From NCBI GenBank assembly GCA_022340465.1, contig JAJDNW010000070.1:1-37638 (forward strand): 37,638 nt of DNA, in the 5' to 3' direction. This DNA is from Deltaproteobacteria bacterium (GTDB lineage Bacteria; Desulfobacterota; Desulfobacteria; Desulfobacterales; B30-G6). Position numbers and translations under genes: made by a program. Of this stretch, positions 4,214 to 26,413 are shown in pieces (the stretch's first letter is position 1; the number at the start of each line of letters is the position of its first letter). The notes beneath the pieces are model-generated. The model was not told where the DNA came from. It saw nothing but the letters and a program-made list of their open reading frames with translations, and made no database searches.

Positions 4214-4663
4214 TTATCCCGCCAGTGTCCTGAGGATGTCCTCTTTGCCCACAACCCCCACCAGTTTTCCCTCCGCGACCACGGGCAGGGTATGAAAATT
4301 GCGGTCCACCATCAGTGCGGCAAGCGTCTCGATGGTGGCGTCGGGAGGCACCCACACGGGGTCGGACGTCATGGCCTGCCTGACGGTTGTAGCGGCTATC
4401 TTCCGGGCCTCCTTCTCGAGGGCTTTCGTGGAGCGCAGGCTGATCAAGCCGTCCAGAAAGGTAAAGTAGGAAGGCAGGGGCAGCTTTTTCTGCTGCGCGA
4501 CGATATCGCTCTGACAGATGATACCCACCAGCTGTCCCTGATCGTCGACAACCGGAAGCCCATTGAACCCCTTTTCGATCATAATGGCTGTCGCACGGCT
4601 GACTTCGTCTTCCGGCGACACGAAAACCGGGTCGGACGTCATAATTTCACTCGCTTTGATCAT
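4214..4663 (-). CDS. CBS-domain pair protein
   Basis: 149 residues made almost entirely of two CBS motifs, about residues 1-60 and 92-149. Each starts with an IMTSDPVF or AMTSDPVW segment and ends with GLPVVDDQGQLVGII or TLPVVAEGKLVGVVGKEDIL. Tandem CBS domains form a Bateman module that usually binds adenosine nucleotides and regulates a partner; free-standing ones are common and their partner cannot be read from sequence. An upstream in-frame TTG at 4675 is possible, but GGAGGTG at 4667-4673 is an ideal Shine-Dalgarno for the ATG at 4663, so that start is chosen. The gene is convergent with the pilus gene. Its leader carries a double hairpin that recurs before exbB (see 4674-4717). Confidence 0.88.
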   Translation of the reverse strand: MIKASEIMTSDPVFVSPEDEVSRATAIMIEKGFNGLPVVDDQGQLVGIICQSDIVAQQKKLPLPSYFTFLDGLISLRSTKALEKEARKIAATTVRQAMTSDPVWVPPDATIETLAALMVDRNFHTLPVVAEGKLVGVVGKEDILRTLAG

Positions 4664-4673
4664 ACCCACCTCC

Positions 4674-4717
4674 AATAAAATCGTGTTCCACGATTTTATG
4701 AAACGCGACTGCGTCGC
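4674..4717 (-). promoter_or_regulatory. Double-hairpin leader before the CBS gene, copy 1 of 2
   Basis: On the minus strand a small stem GCGAC/GTCGC with a 3-nt loop (4705-4717) is followed by a 5-nt GTTTC spacer. An 11-bp perfect stem with a 3-nt loop comes next (arms 4675-4685 and 4689-4699), and it abuts the Shine-Dalgarno. The same arrangement precedes exbB at 22338-22380, with paired changes in the long stem. It could be a translational control element or a dispersed repeat that landed in leaders; sequence alone does not decide. Confidence 0.6.
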
Positions 4718-4799
4718 TCCTATTCAAAAGATTTATCCGCCGTCAGTTGGGCGGGCCTAAATTCCTATCCAGCACTGCAAGCTGCGGGATACGCTTTCA

Positions 4800-21718: not shown

Positions 21719-22321
21719 TCAGGGAATGACCGCCTTCACAAATGTTACGGCCCCGTCCTGCAGCCTGGCTTCATAATTGTTGACGCGGGAAACCAGATAG
21801 GAGTGCGCCAAAATGATGGGCAGGGCCACTGACAGCCCCAGGGCGGTCGTCAACATGGCCTCCCATATCCCGCCGGCCAGGACGGCCGCATTGACCCTGC
21901 CGCCCATTTCCTGAATCACCATGAATGCCTTGATCATCCCTATCACCGTGCCGAGGAGTCCCAAAAGAGGCGCTATATTGCCAATGGTCGCCAGGGCCTG
22001 CAGATAACTGGAAAGCTTTCGAACCTGTTCATCGGTGGCATGCACGATGACGGTTTCGAGGGTTTCGCGCTCCTTGTCCTTGACCTCCATCGCCTGCGCC
22101 AGGATGTATCCCATGGGGGATTTGCTCTGCAACGCCATCTGGTAAGCACCGCTGTCGTCGCCCTCTTTGATCAAGCCGGCCACTTTTTGCGCCAGTCCCG
22201 CCCCCCGCTTCCTCAGGCTTGCGAAACGAATCAATCGTTCCAGGAAGATAGCCAGCCCAAAAATGGAGCACAGCAGAATCGGTATAACCAGCACGCCGCC
22301 TTTAACCAGAAGATCGAGCAT
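21719..22321 (-). CDS. exbB: ExbB/TolQ/MotA-family proton-channel protein
   Basis: 200 residues. Three membrane segments are visible: an N-terminal one (about 5-26), and a pair in the C-terminal half around IAPLLGLLGTVIGMIKAF (about 113-131) and AMLTTALGLSVALPIILAHSY (about 153-173). The conserved TVIGM and TALGLSVALP motifs are diagnostic for the MotA/TolQ/ExbB proton-channel domain. The protein forms the inner-membrane stator with ExbD. ATG 22321 is preceded by GGAGGA, and the family starts there; the upstream extension to 22354 would be encoded by the hairpin leader. This is the first gene of the exbB-exbD-tonB-TPR series. Confidence 0.93.
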   Translation of the reverse strand: MLDLLVKGGVLVIPILLCSIFGLAIFLERLIRFASLRKRGAGLAQKVAGLIKEGDDSGAYQMALQSKSPMGYILAQAMEVKDKERETLETVIVHATDEQVRKLSSYLQALATIGNIAPLLGLLGTVIGMIKAFMVIQEMGGRVNAAVLAGGIWEAMLTTALGLSVALPIILAHSYLVSRVNNYEARLQDGAVTFVKAVIP

Positions 22322-22337
22322 ATTTTTTCCTCCTTCA

Positions 22338-22380
22338 ATAAAATTTTGTCCCAAAATTTTATGAAACGCGACTGCGTCGC
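22338..22380 (-). promoter_or_regulatory. Double-hairpin leader before exbB, copy 2 of 2
   Basis: Same architecture as 4674-4717: GCGAC/GTCGC hairpin (22368-22380), GTTTC spacer, then an 11-bp perfect stem with a 3-nt loop (arms 22338-22348 and 22352-22362), followed by the Shine-Dalgarno. Three stem positions differ from the CBS copy and every change is matched on the opposite arm, so pairing is kept while sequence is not. Confidence 0.6.
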
Positions 22381-22397
22381 TTCTCTATAATAATTTT

Positions 22398-22489
22398 ACC
22401 TAAGTTGAGCGATTTTCGGGTTTGCCGCAGATGCATTGAAGTTATTTTTATTTTTATCATTTTTAAAATTTGTAACGCTCAACTTAGGT
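22398..22489. repeat. MITE-like element A with 14-bp terminal inverted repeats
   Basis: 92 bp bounded by ACCTAAGTTGAGCG and its exact inverted complement. Its first 38 bp are identical to element B (24571-24780), and the last 40 or so bp are similar. It has no coding capacity. It lies between exbB and the DxDxDG-repeat gene. Confidence 0.8.
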
Positions 22490-22559
22490 TTTAATTTCTC
22501 CAGAGCTACCCCCGATACGGGATCTTTGCACCGTTTTGACAAGCAGCGGGGAATTCAAA

Positions 22560-22678
22560 TTGAACACTCCCCACAGCAAGCGTAAGGGGAATCTTCACCG
22601 TAAGGAATTCTATCAATTGTGATTCGCTCGCTTACCCTGCAGCAAGCTGCAGGGAATGCGCGCGCTATCTCGGTTCAA
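22560..22678. repeat. 119-bp dispersed repeat, copy 3 of 3
   Basis: Full-length copy with TTGAAC/GTTCAA ends. Its right end overlaps the last codon and supplies the TGA stop (22675-22677) of the minus-strand DxDxDG-repeat gene. About 3 differences from copy 1. Confidence 0.9.
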
Positions 22679-24468
22679 AAAACCTCTTCAACATCTGGGT
22701 TTCCGTCGAAATCCAGGTCTTTTTCCCTCTTGACGACCTGCTGATCGGCGCCGTAGTCTTCCCAGACATCCACCCGTCCGTCATTGTTGGCATCCTCCTT
22801 GACCGCACTCAGCAAACCGTTTTCATAGGTGTACCAGATGTCCGGCCGGCCGTCACCGTTCCTGTCCCTTTCCGCCCTGACCGGTCTGCCGTCCGGTGCG
22901 AAAAACCACACGATGCTCGCCGTGCCAAGGGGGTCTTGCAACTCCTCGCTCTTGACGAGGGTTCCCCCGGCATCGTAATACTCCCGCAGAAAGACACCCC
23001 CCTTCCGTATTTCGTCGGTTTCTTTGACTCTGACGACATCGTCTTGATAGAAATAACGCCGGTCGACCTGCCCGTCCTCATCGCTGTCGATTTCGAGAAC
23101 CACCTGCCACGCATCCCGGTTGAACCACTCGGTCTTTTCGAAAAAGCCGTCAAAGTCACCGTCCTTGACCAGTTTTTCACGGCGACCGTCGCGATAGTCC
23201 ACCCGCATATCCACCTTGCCGTCCCCGTTCAGGTCTTTTTGCACCGCGGCGAGTTCACCCGCGGAATACAATTGCCATGTATCCGGGCGGCCGTCCAATG
23301 TCGTGTCGTGCTCCGAGCGGACCGGCTCTCCCCGGTCGTTGAAAAAAATGCGCACATCGGCCTGCCCGTCCCGGTTGACGTCCTCCGATTTTACGTAAGC
23401 GACACCATCCCGGTACAGCCAGACAGTCTCGCGGAATCCGTCGCCATCGCCATCCACTTCGACCCGTGTCGGAACGCCGTTTTCGAAAACGCTGATCTTT
23501 TCTATTTTGCCGTCACCGGCGTTCAGGGTCTCCTGCCTGGACACTTGTCCCTGATTGTCGAACTCGGTCACCGTTTCCTTTATCCCGTCGAAATCGAGAT
23601 CTTCTTCCAACGATGCCGGTTTGCCGGCCCGATAGGTCGTCTTGCGGTCAAAGATGCCGTCACCGTTTACATCCTCCTGTTTTTCGACCGCCCGTCCATC
23701 CTTGAAAATGGTTTTCGACACCGGTTTTCCAGCGCTGCTCGGCTCGCTCCTCTGCTCCGCCACCCGGCCGTTCCGGTAGGTGCGGAACAGGTCCATCTCC
23801 CCGTCATGGTCGGTATCGTGGCGGCTTTCGAGCGGGAGGCCGTCCGAACCGTAAACAATGGCCGCATCCTGGCGGCCGTCGCCATCCTCGTCCAGGCGTC
23901 TTTCGCTAAGCGTGCCTTTCACATAGGTGTCCCATGTATCGACCTGTCCGTCGGCATCGGTGTCCCGGGTGGAAGACGTCAACTGCCCCGCGGTGTAAAA
24001 AGAAACGGTATCCATGCGGCCGTCACCGTTTGTGTCCCTTCTGACCGCGGCGATTTCGCCCCCGGTATCGAAATCCACTCTCTCGGTAATATTTCCCCGG
24101 GCCCCAAGCCTTTCCTCCGACACCCTGTCGCCCTTTTTGAAACGATCTCTGGTGTCAATGATGCCGTCGAAATCCGTGTCCCTTTCGATACACACGAGAG
24201 CGCCTTTTTCGTATATCTGAAACAGATCCTCGATACCATCCCGGTTCGTGTCGATGTTCATCCGTTTCAGCCTGCCCTTGTCATCGAAATACGCCCGCTG
24301 GTTTTCCGTGCCGCCCGACATGTTCCCCTCGTTGGGGCCGGCGGGTCCTTCGGCTTCGGCATAACCGACGGTCACGACCATTAGCAGCAGCGCCATTATG
24401 GCAGCAGGCAGCCATCTATCGACCACCCAACGCCTGGGCGTCGTTGGATTTTCCCGTCTCGCTTTCAT
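22675..24468 (-). CDS. Secreted protein of about 17 DxDxDG (calcium-type) repeats
   Basis: 597 residues. A basic N-terminus and hydrophobic stretch (about 18-38, LPAAIMALLLMVVTVGYAEA) look like a signal peptide. Nearly all the rest is built of about 17 units of roughly 24 residues, each opening with a D-x-(D/N)-x-DG-x-x-(D/E) loop followed by a Tyr/Phe and a Gly-containing turn, for example DTNGDGRMDTVSFYTAG and DANNDGRVDVWEDYGAD. The loop resembles the calcium-binding loops of dockerin, EF-hand and thrombospondin type 3 repeats, so a rigid Ca2+-stabilised surface or periplasmic protein is likely. Four units carry inserts that look like degenerate repeats. The stop codon comes from the 119-bp repeat, so the original C-terminus may have been cut. 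It is upstream of exbB on the same strand but separated by 350 bp of repeats. Function unknown. Confidence 0.78.
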   Translation of the reverse strand: MKARRENPTTPRRWVVDRWLPAAIMALLLMVVTVGYAEAEGPAGPNEGNMSGGTENQRAYFDDKGRLKRMNIDTNRDGIEDLFQIYEKGALVCIERDTDFDGIIDTRDRFKKGDRVSEERLGARGNITERVDFDTGGEIAAVRRDTNGDGRMDTVSFYTAGQLTSSTRDTDADGQVDTWDTYVKGTLSERRLDEDGDGRQDAAIVYGSDGLPLESRHDTDHDGEMDLFRTYRNGRVAEQRSEPSSAGKPVSKTIFKDGRAVEKQEDVNGDGIFDRKTTYRAGKPASLEEDLDFDGIKETVTEFDNQGQVSRQETLNAGDGKIEKISVFENGVPTRVEVDGDGDGFRETVWLYRDGVAYVKSEDVNRDGQADVRIFFNDRGEPVRSEHDTTLDGRPDTWQLYSAGELAAVQKDLNGDGKVDMRVDYRDGRREKLVKDGDFDGFFEKTEWFNRDAWQVVLEIDSDEDGQVDRRYFYQDDVVRVKETDEIRKGGVFLREYYDAGGTLVKSEELQDPLGTASIVWFFAPDGRPVRAERDRNGDGRPDIWYTYENGLLSAVKEDANNDGRVDVWEDYGADQQVVKREKDLDFDGNPDVEEVF

Positions 24469-25519: not shown

Positions 25520-25714
25520 GCGCTGACGCGCGTTTTTGGAGTGGTAATTCGCTTCGCTGTCACTAGGCCTTCGGCCGTAACTTGCGCTGCCGCGCGATAG
25601 TCATCGTTGCTAACAGCCCCGCGCCAAAAGCAACAACAAATGACGCACCAAGAAGCCCTATAATGTCAACAACCTGAAACCTTAATCGAGTTAAATAAGG
25701 AACATATCAATAAG

Positions 25715-26413
25715 ATGACGAATGTTATGAAACCCGCCGTGATCCTGTCGAGCGGCGGACTGGATTCCACAACGGTCATGGCTATCGCCAGGGAGCAGGG
25801 ATTCACCCTCTACGCCCTGAGCTTTGATTACGGACAGCGGCACGCCTTCGAGTTGTCCGCTGCGGCACGGGTCGCCCGGGAAATGGGCGTCGAAAAACAC
25901 CTGGTGGTCAGGGCGGATCTCACCGGTATCGGCGGATCGGCCCTTACCGGCGATATTGCCGTACCCAAGAACCGGATCGTCGAGAATGAAAACAATGCCG
26001 ATATCCCCGTTACCTACGTACCGGCCCGCAACACGATTTTCCTGTCTTATGCGCTTGCATGGGCGGAAGTGCTGGATTCGGAAGACATCTTCGTCGGTGT
26101 CAATGCCGTGGATTACAGCGGCTATCCGGACTGCCGCCCGGAATACCTAGAGGCCTTCGAGGCCATGGCCAACCTGGCGACCCGGGCGGGCGTGGAAGGC
26201 AAATCCCGGTTCAGGATTCACGCCCCCCTGGTTCATATGAGCAAGGCAATGATCATCCAGAGAGGGGTGCAGTTGAATGTCGACTACAGTCTGACCCACT
26301 CCTGTTACGATCCGGACGCCTCGGGCAGGGCCTGCGGCGCCTGTGACAGCTGCCTTCTCAGAAAAAAAGGGTTCGAGGAAGCCGGCGTCGAAGATCCGAC
26401 CCGGTATCTGTAA
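25715..26413 (+). CDS. queC: 7-cyano-7-deazaguanine synthase (QueC)
   Basis: 232 residues. QueC uses ATP and ammonia to convert 7-carboxy-7-deazaguanine to preQ0, the step after QueE. The PP-loop SSGGLDSTT (12-20) binds ATP, FDYGQRH follows, and the C-terminal zinc site uses Cys197, Cys207, Cys210 and Cys213 (CGACDSC). The internal [11 protein letters not shown] and [13 protein letters not shown] motifs are canonical. The start at 25715 has AAGGA about 12 nt upstream; the Met at codon 5 is an alternative. The 25520-25714 spacer holds no convincing gene or riboswitch. Downstream of the stop begins the AAATCCGTGTC repeat cluster. Confidence 0.94.

Follow-up and report, generated by a model that had tools for sequence, protein, structure and literature searches.

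The closest described systems to the element reported here are the REP and BIME sequences, which are likewise short extragenic palindromes, present in tens to hundreds of copies and in mosaic with other modules. For the REPs of Escherichia coli, PMC12306157 gives a figure of 446/4,072 within 15 nt of a stop codon and cites a report that REPs no more than 15 nt from a stop stall ribosomes. A GTAG family of REPs is reported from D. alkenivorans in PMC3733652. MITEs and the RU elements of enterobacteria are similar in being non-coding, dispersed, intergenic and patchy among relatives, and bidirectional intrinsic terminators are similar in forming an AAAA-stem-TTTT palindrome 3' of genes. D. alkenivorans, which we take to be a Desulfatibacillum, is presumably a relative of the bacterium studied here. 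The hallmarks of MITEs are terminal inverted repeats and a target-site duplication. Integron attC sites, whose core is GTTRRRY, also touch stop codons.

The window, i.e., the whole stretch of 37,638 nucleotides that was analyzed, carries two double hairpins on its minus strand. At both loci the order is a first hairpin (hp1, GCGACnnnGTCGC), the linker GTTTC, a second hairpin (hp2) with an 11-bp stem and a 3-nt loop, a Shine-Dalgarno (SD) sequence and an ATG, and in this the sequence-only reading of the same DNA was accurate. The copy before an exbB-like gene spans 22338-22380, as that reading had it, and consists of hp1 (GCGAC-GCA-GTCGC, 22368..22380), the linker (22363..22367) and hp2 (stem ATAAAATTTTG/CAAAATTTTAT, loop GGA, 22338..22362), followed outside the stem by the SD sequence AGGAGG (22329..22334) and the gene itself (21719..22321, ATG at 22321), whose product has a MotA_ExbB domain match (E 1.8e-31). 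The second copy spans 4675-4717 and not 4674-4717, position 4674 being the base after it; its parts are hp1 (GCGAC-GCA-GTCGC, 4705..4717), the linker GTTTC (4700..4704) and hp2 (stem ATAAAATCGTG/CACGATTTTAT, loop GAA, 4675..4699), and 3' of it are the SD sequence GGAGG (4669..4673) and a gene (4214..4663, ATG at 4663) whose product matches the CBS domain in two stretches (E 3.6e-34). The long stems had been said to differ at three compensated positions; they differ at two, since CGT and TTT share their last T, and both differences are matched on the other arm, while the loops differ too. We consider it probable (roughly 0.7) that these stretches are copies of a lineage-restricted, dispersed, REP/BIME-like palindromic repeat, and not a leader switch of two genes.

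The pair belongs to a large dispersed family that is invisible from the window alone. A similarity search with a 71-base query found 30 places in the genome of the window and matched 5 of 20 genomes, this one included (the others being G001 with 39 places, G002 with 6, G017 with 2 and G010 with 1), leaving 15 of the 20 without any match. The pattern GCGRCNNNGYCGCGTTNC has 52 sites in the own genome, 27 on one contig strand and 25 on the other, compared with none for the reversed pattern. Across the order, the pattern GCGRCNNNGYCGCGTTTCATAA occurs in 18 of 291 genomes and 12 of 138 genera, and the reversed-pattern control columns are zero. At least 120 stretches of a named collection were matched; the titles among the matches listed are Desulfobacterales, Desulfobacteraceae, Deltaproteobacteria, Ca. 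Desulfatibia vada and Olavius Delta 3, plus a single Syntrophales title and a single Proteobacteria title. A covariance model was then built from 40 copies and used to score the best 150 candidates per genome in 13 hand-chosen genomes, eight of them carriers and five previously shown to have none or almost none. Within those candidates there were 96 matches in the own genome and 107, 72, 38, 57, 118, 52 and 60 in the seven other carriers, and none in the five non-carriers. The window copies themselves score far beyond chance (E 1.2e-15 and 2.1e-14), values to be read with the caveat that the exbB copy was itself in the training set, as was another copy with the same sequence as that of the CBS gene. 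A further match at 25710-25758 is weak (14 bits, E 0.096) and lies over the start of an open reading frame, and we do not believe it to be a real copy.

Several identities for the element were considered and dropped. A known RNA family was set aside as an Rfam search of the window gave no match above the gathering score, the two sub-threshold matches in 22300-22700 being to microRNA families (E 2.1 and 3.7). Virus cargo as the origin was abandoned since GYCGCGTTTCATAAAATCG has no exact match in the viral contigs, a set that may omit near records. An integron attC site would be a poor fit in that the linker GTTTCAT departs from the core of those sites and the copies are dispersed. No paper among those listed in literature searches was recognizable as a description of this double-palindrome element, and a search for the exact 12-mer GTTTCATAAAAT returned matches only on a nematode and a Lactiplantibacillus.

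The anatomy of the element was defined from 184 distinct copies picked on hp1, GTNNN and RTAA alone, none being dropped for the length of hp2. The fixed part is hp1 (GCGRCnnnGYCGC) with its short linker, GTTTC in most copies. The palindrome of hp2 has RTAA...TTAY at its limits, A-tract and T-tract arms and a variable interior. The hairpin begins exactly at RTAA in 161 of the 184 copies (0.8 expected when the right side is shuffled), and 27 different perfect hp2 arms occur among them, some of the stems being long and unrelated in sequence, up to 23 bp in L228. Many copies are extended leftward by further hairpin modules that recur at different loci in varying combinations, and the long copies start near TTAAATTTGAATTCCCCGC. 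A short form at L161 2395 (minus) lacks hp1 and has hp2 next to the left-end hairpin with almost nothing between them, which shows that the modules combine freely. Relative to REPs and BIMEs, the element differs in having two hairpins in fixed order, an interchangeable hp2 and a TAA that often lies in the stem at one register. It also has no GTAG/CGTC tag, as that tag is defined in PMC3733652, before hp1, where the bases vary and by eye mostly end in A. As for a likeness to MITEs, the ends of the element (TTAAATTTG and AATAAAATC) are dissimilar, each with a hairpin of its own, and neither terminal inverted repeats that would join them nor a target duplication was found, the flanks of the relatives compared being too diverged to show a duplication. 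Unlike bidirectional terminators, it starts in the stop codon, carries hp1, stands also before SD sequences and in its common form has no free U-run, although some long forms are nearer to a terminator than the common form is.

Copies of the element are numerous within genomes and patchy among them, and it is the hp2 side that abuts a gene boundary, in many cases with an embedded TAA. Placement was measured without a gene caller on 178 of the 184 copies (37 of them from the own genome, compared with its 96 model matches), by looking on the opposite strand for a frame with 80 or more open codons whose end falls between -4 and +15 relative to the hp2 edge or, on the start side, for an SD sequence and start within 32 nt. 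On the hp2 side, 90 of the 178 copies abut the stop of such a frame and 21 precede an SD sequence and start, while the same test on the hp1 side gave 10 and 5, i.e., 15/178. By source, the hp2-side totals (stop plus start) are 33/37 in the own genome, 18/24 in G001, 32/49 in Olavius, 26/43 in others and 2/25 in G259. The sequence-only reading had proposed a covariance-model scan for a tie to start codons on one strand, with hits at random positions and strands as the outcome that would speak for an ordinary dispersed palindrome. The copies are on both contig strands and not tied to starts, yet they are not random, being polar with respect to gene ends.

These counts bear directly on the interpretation that had been offered for the window, namely that exbB and the CBS gene each have a 5' leader whose double hairpin governs how accessible the ribosome site is. 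The same order directly before the SD sequence of both genes, the strong covariation over 40 copies, the 21 start-side copies and a start-side pair in the own genome (L209) and a relative (L113) that by eye looks orthologous, with stems changed but still paired, are all in its favor. Against it, the 90 copies noted above are at stops instead, and the element is missing from most orthologues of the two genes. It is within 140 nt 5' of exbB in 1 of 8 orthologues, the seven without it including G001, where only the last 60 nt of the leader are readable (N beyond); and it is within 110 nt 5' of the CBS gene in 1 of 14, from 16 genomes of which G254 (weak) and G155 (partial) were left out. In addition, neither hairpin includes the SD sequence in the best fold predicted for either leader, the predicted unpaired fraction being 0.47 for exbB and 0.22 for the CBS gene, whose SD sequence would pair with coding sequence in the best fold. 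On copy position and orthologue absence we reject a leader switch, which we now regard as very improbable. Under the repeat reading, the copies before exbB and the CBS gene would be tolerated in a 5' leader, where they give no sign of regulation.

At both window loci the copy is present in neither congener, and among the genomes compared it was seen in this one alone. The gap between exbB and the gene upstream is 353 nt in the own genome and is full of repeat modules; it is 49 nt in G002 and 75 nt in G003, where the upstream protein ends alike, 235 nt in G017 and 171 nt in G155, and the upstream frames in G085 and G283 may be a different gene. The Apt protein ends FEGE or FEGD in all 8 genomes used (of 10 with a match, those of G012 and G113 being weak), and the element follows in three, G000, G003 and G017, the last with a different hp1 sequence, and not in the other five. 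At hemW, the element is found in 1 of 14 orthologues (G000), with a bare stem in G259 (14 of 16 genomes were used, G254 and G005 being weak), and thus even stop-side copies are often not conserved. The gene before smpB, which from its letters we take to be PtsI-like, has the element in three congeners, G000, G001 and G002, and lacks it in 11 other genomes; the G002 copy has one compensated pair changed in hp2. Two of the three copies carry GCAAC/GTTGC as hp1, and the G000 copy carries an imperfect GCGGC/GCTGC. Together, the locus comparisons indicate that individual lineages acquire copies, that a copy can be passed on by descent, and that its stem can be exchanged for another without loss of pairing.

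The placement at stops is not only close but often exact to the codon. In tests that used open frames only and required no start codon (as did those on flush placement, on mismatches and on G259), the stem TAA is the exact end of a frame of 100 codons or more in 42 of 161 copies, compared with 12 and 13 for the other two frames. In many cases the stem contains the TAA stop and the end of the protein is still the usual one. The same register was seen in counts based on a simple gene caller of our own, in which short frames and duplicates were filtered and starts are rough (it also served for stop usage, left ends and neighbor orientation). Among own-genome genes, the best stem is at offset -4, so that it begins one base ahead of the stop codon, in 13 of 24 with hp1 downstream, compared with 1 of 80 without; the corresponding figures are 3/5 and 1/17 for G001 and 12/31 and 3/416 for the named contigs. 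Genes with hp1 downstream use TAA as their stop in 24/24 cases in the own genome, 4/5 in G001 and 24/31 in the named contigs, versus 30/80, 9/17 and 165/416, respectively, for genes without it. At L130 560-1405 the palindrome mirrors the actual stop codon: TAG replaces TAA, and the far stem arm reads CTA to match. The left gene's TAA is also inside the left end of the element in 4 of the 32 listed long-copy places (L024, L049, L106 and L144), in all four at the same offset.

A hairpin that embeds a stop codon might be an intrinsic terminator, ending transcription of the gene whose stop it contains, in which case its letters would be free and the hairpin alone would matter. The A-tract and T-tract arms of hp2 are consistent with this, as are the predicted stabilities of some long copies (-45.0 kcal/mol for L228, -27.3 for smpB in G001 and -30.5 for smpB in G002) and the different stems that genomes of one family carry at the same place after smpB. 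The common forms, however, are predicted to be weak (-5.7 to -10.8 kcal/mol), start one base before the stop and run on into GAAAC with no U-run, and start-side copies would shut off their own genes. PMC4824070 reports that the ribosome represses terminators that lie a few bases from a stop, and for the common weak form this speaks against plain termination. Downstream neighbors are not clearly more convergent at the element than elsewhere either (11/27 vs. 33/105 in the own genome, 4/10 vs. 10/25 in G001, and 7/32 vs. 125/567 in others). Its absence from tandem gaps of at most 40 nt (0/47 vs. 168/529) is no evidence for a terminator, since the element alone fills 43 nt. Termination as the general role is in our judgment unlikely. 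Like the two ideas on upkeep and insertion discussed below, it is compatible with the identity of the element as a repeat, and our estimates for these readings of function and placement overlap with that for the repeat and are not shares of one total. What the stop-embedded hairpin of the repeat may do is meet the terminating ribosome and slow it or affect the 3' end of the mRNA, by analogy with what is reported for REPs that lie no farther than 15 nt from a stop in E. coli.

Pairing in the element is retained although its letters change. An alignment of 40 of the 51 distinct windows from the own genome and G001 has 97.5% of its cells paired, a figure that leans high because the 11 windows with an hp2 of other length or not formed were left out beforehand; it shows 46 double changes versus 9.3 when shuffled and a covariation score of 0.252 versus 0.083, and every slid control was lower on all measures. 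This much of the claim of a conserved paired structure stands; a preference for the RNA strand does not accompany it. Selection on RNA should favor G-U over A-C mismatches. Among 173 of the 184 copies, 139 stems are perfect, and the non-Watson-Crick pairs on the gene-sense strand of stop-side copies are 9 G-U, 7 A-C and 12 other, with 1, 1 and 1 at start-side copies and 0, 6 and 6 in unplaced copies (plus strand), and these small numbers show no preference for G-U on the strand that is transcribed. Upkeep of the palindrome at the DNA level thus explains the covariation, few as the informative cases are, as well as selection on RNA does. Template switching is reported, in PMC8794818, to create and maintain such hairpins. 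We take the covariation as evidence of palindrome upkeep and not as proof of an RNA regulator, and more generally copying at the DNA level can produce covariation among dispersed palindromes, even compensated changes at orthologous sites, so that covariation alone does not suffice to establish a regulatory RNA.

The same observations would suit a selfish or neutral repeat whose arms are kept complementary by template switching during replication and which stands at gene ends where it is harmless. The unbiased mismatches, the perfect stems and the scattered near-identical copies in G259 agree with such a repeat; harmlessness alone, however, leaves the one-sided and often exact-register abutment on genes unexplained, and we see this account as possible but doubtful. 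Within the repeat reading that we prefer, the copies would spread as DNA through a putative mover, and template switching or hairpin-based copying would preserve the complementarity of their arms, whether or not selection also acts.

For the codon-precise placement, targeted insertion and strong sorting are candidate routes. Insertion machinery that recognizes gene ends, either the stop codon or the edge of the SD sequence, would account for codon-exact placement beside usual C-termini and for the shared offset of the left-end TAA in the four long copies; no enzyme is linked to the element, however, and the copies of G259 are mostly not flush (2/25), and putative machinery of this kind is at present quite unlikely. 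RAYT enzymes as the mobilizing agent are unsupported by the distribution of PF01797 (Y1), which is present in 12 of the 13 genomes, including G005 and G013 that have no model matches, and has no match in G259 despite 52 model matches there among the best 150 candidates; of 30 Y1 loci fetched, one (L196) has a copy nearby.

The copies in G259 are near-identical (0.8 differences in 40) and mostly not flush, and so flush placement is not a property of every insertion. That flush copies are simply old is suggested by comparing G259 with the other genomes, and is little supported within single genomes: near-consensus copies are flush about as often as diverged ones (13/17 vs. 16/16 in the own genome, 13/18 vs. 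4/5 in G001 and 20/32 vs. 5/9 in Olavius), which gives little support to simple slow sorting. G259 may hold either a different sub-element or a recent burst that precedes sorting. Its near-identical long mosaic copies (L143, L145, L153, L156, L161, L165, L166 and L168) make it a place to look for the mover. Along with the 2/25 of G259 and the distribution of Y1 genes, which links no mover to the element, the stop-side hemW copy in 1 of 14 orthologues and a left-end TAA in only 4 of 32 places count against the repeat reading, and comparison of orthologous flanks gave no clean empty site with a target duplication, the flanks of relatives being too diverged.

In our view the unusual part is the codon-precise placement, and the smpB case is also worth following. 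Among the 14 of 16 genomes compared at smpB (two had no match), a stop-embedded stem is present at the 3' end of the gene in G001, G002, G254 and G113 (L266, L267, L270 and L276), and the protein keeps its usual end. For G000 and G003 the automated search gave no stem, and an imperfect one is seen by eye (L265 and L268); the eight other genomes have no stop-embedded stem. The four stems are unrelated except for shared outer ends of the TAAAA type, and the flanks of G254 and G283 are unlike from the stop onward and re-align only at a 33-nt stretch. As smpB is a ribosome-rescue gene, feedback through stalled termination is conceivable. A bolder proposal is that a mobile double palindrome inserts at frame ends to the exact codon, the stop becoming part of its hairpin, and would thereby be a portable module setting translation termination or mRNA 3' ends in dozens of genes per genome, smpB included; we hold this to be rather unlikely. 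If the embedding of the stop is mechanistic, the mobile repeat would have chosen its target in an unusual way, and nature would have provided an experiment on how hairpins at stop codons affect termination, recycling and rescue.

Other palindromic modules lie near both copies in the window, all on the minus strand. Near the CBS copy, CCCGCCCAACTGACGGCGG (4737..4755) resembles the left flanks of other copies (L022 and L024). Beyond the exbB copy are a module of the left-end type, TTCAATTTGAATTCCCCGCTGCTT (22541..22564), and a hairpin, CCCTGCAGCTTGCTGCAGGG (22635..22654), that is present also in the left flanks of other copies. A separate module beside the exbB copy (22399..22488) runs from CCTAAGTTGAGCG (22488-22476) to CGCTCAACTTAGG (22411-22399); its first half, CCTAAGTTGAGCG, is seen again next to a copy of the element in G017 (L044), and a diverged look-alike is found 3' of smpB in G085 (the L274 smpB flank). 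In G017, the 3' flanks of smpB and hemW (L275 and L328) are filled with short tandem repeats like GGATGCTGGATACT.
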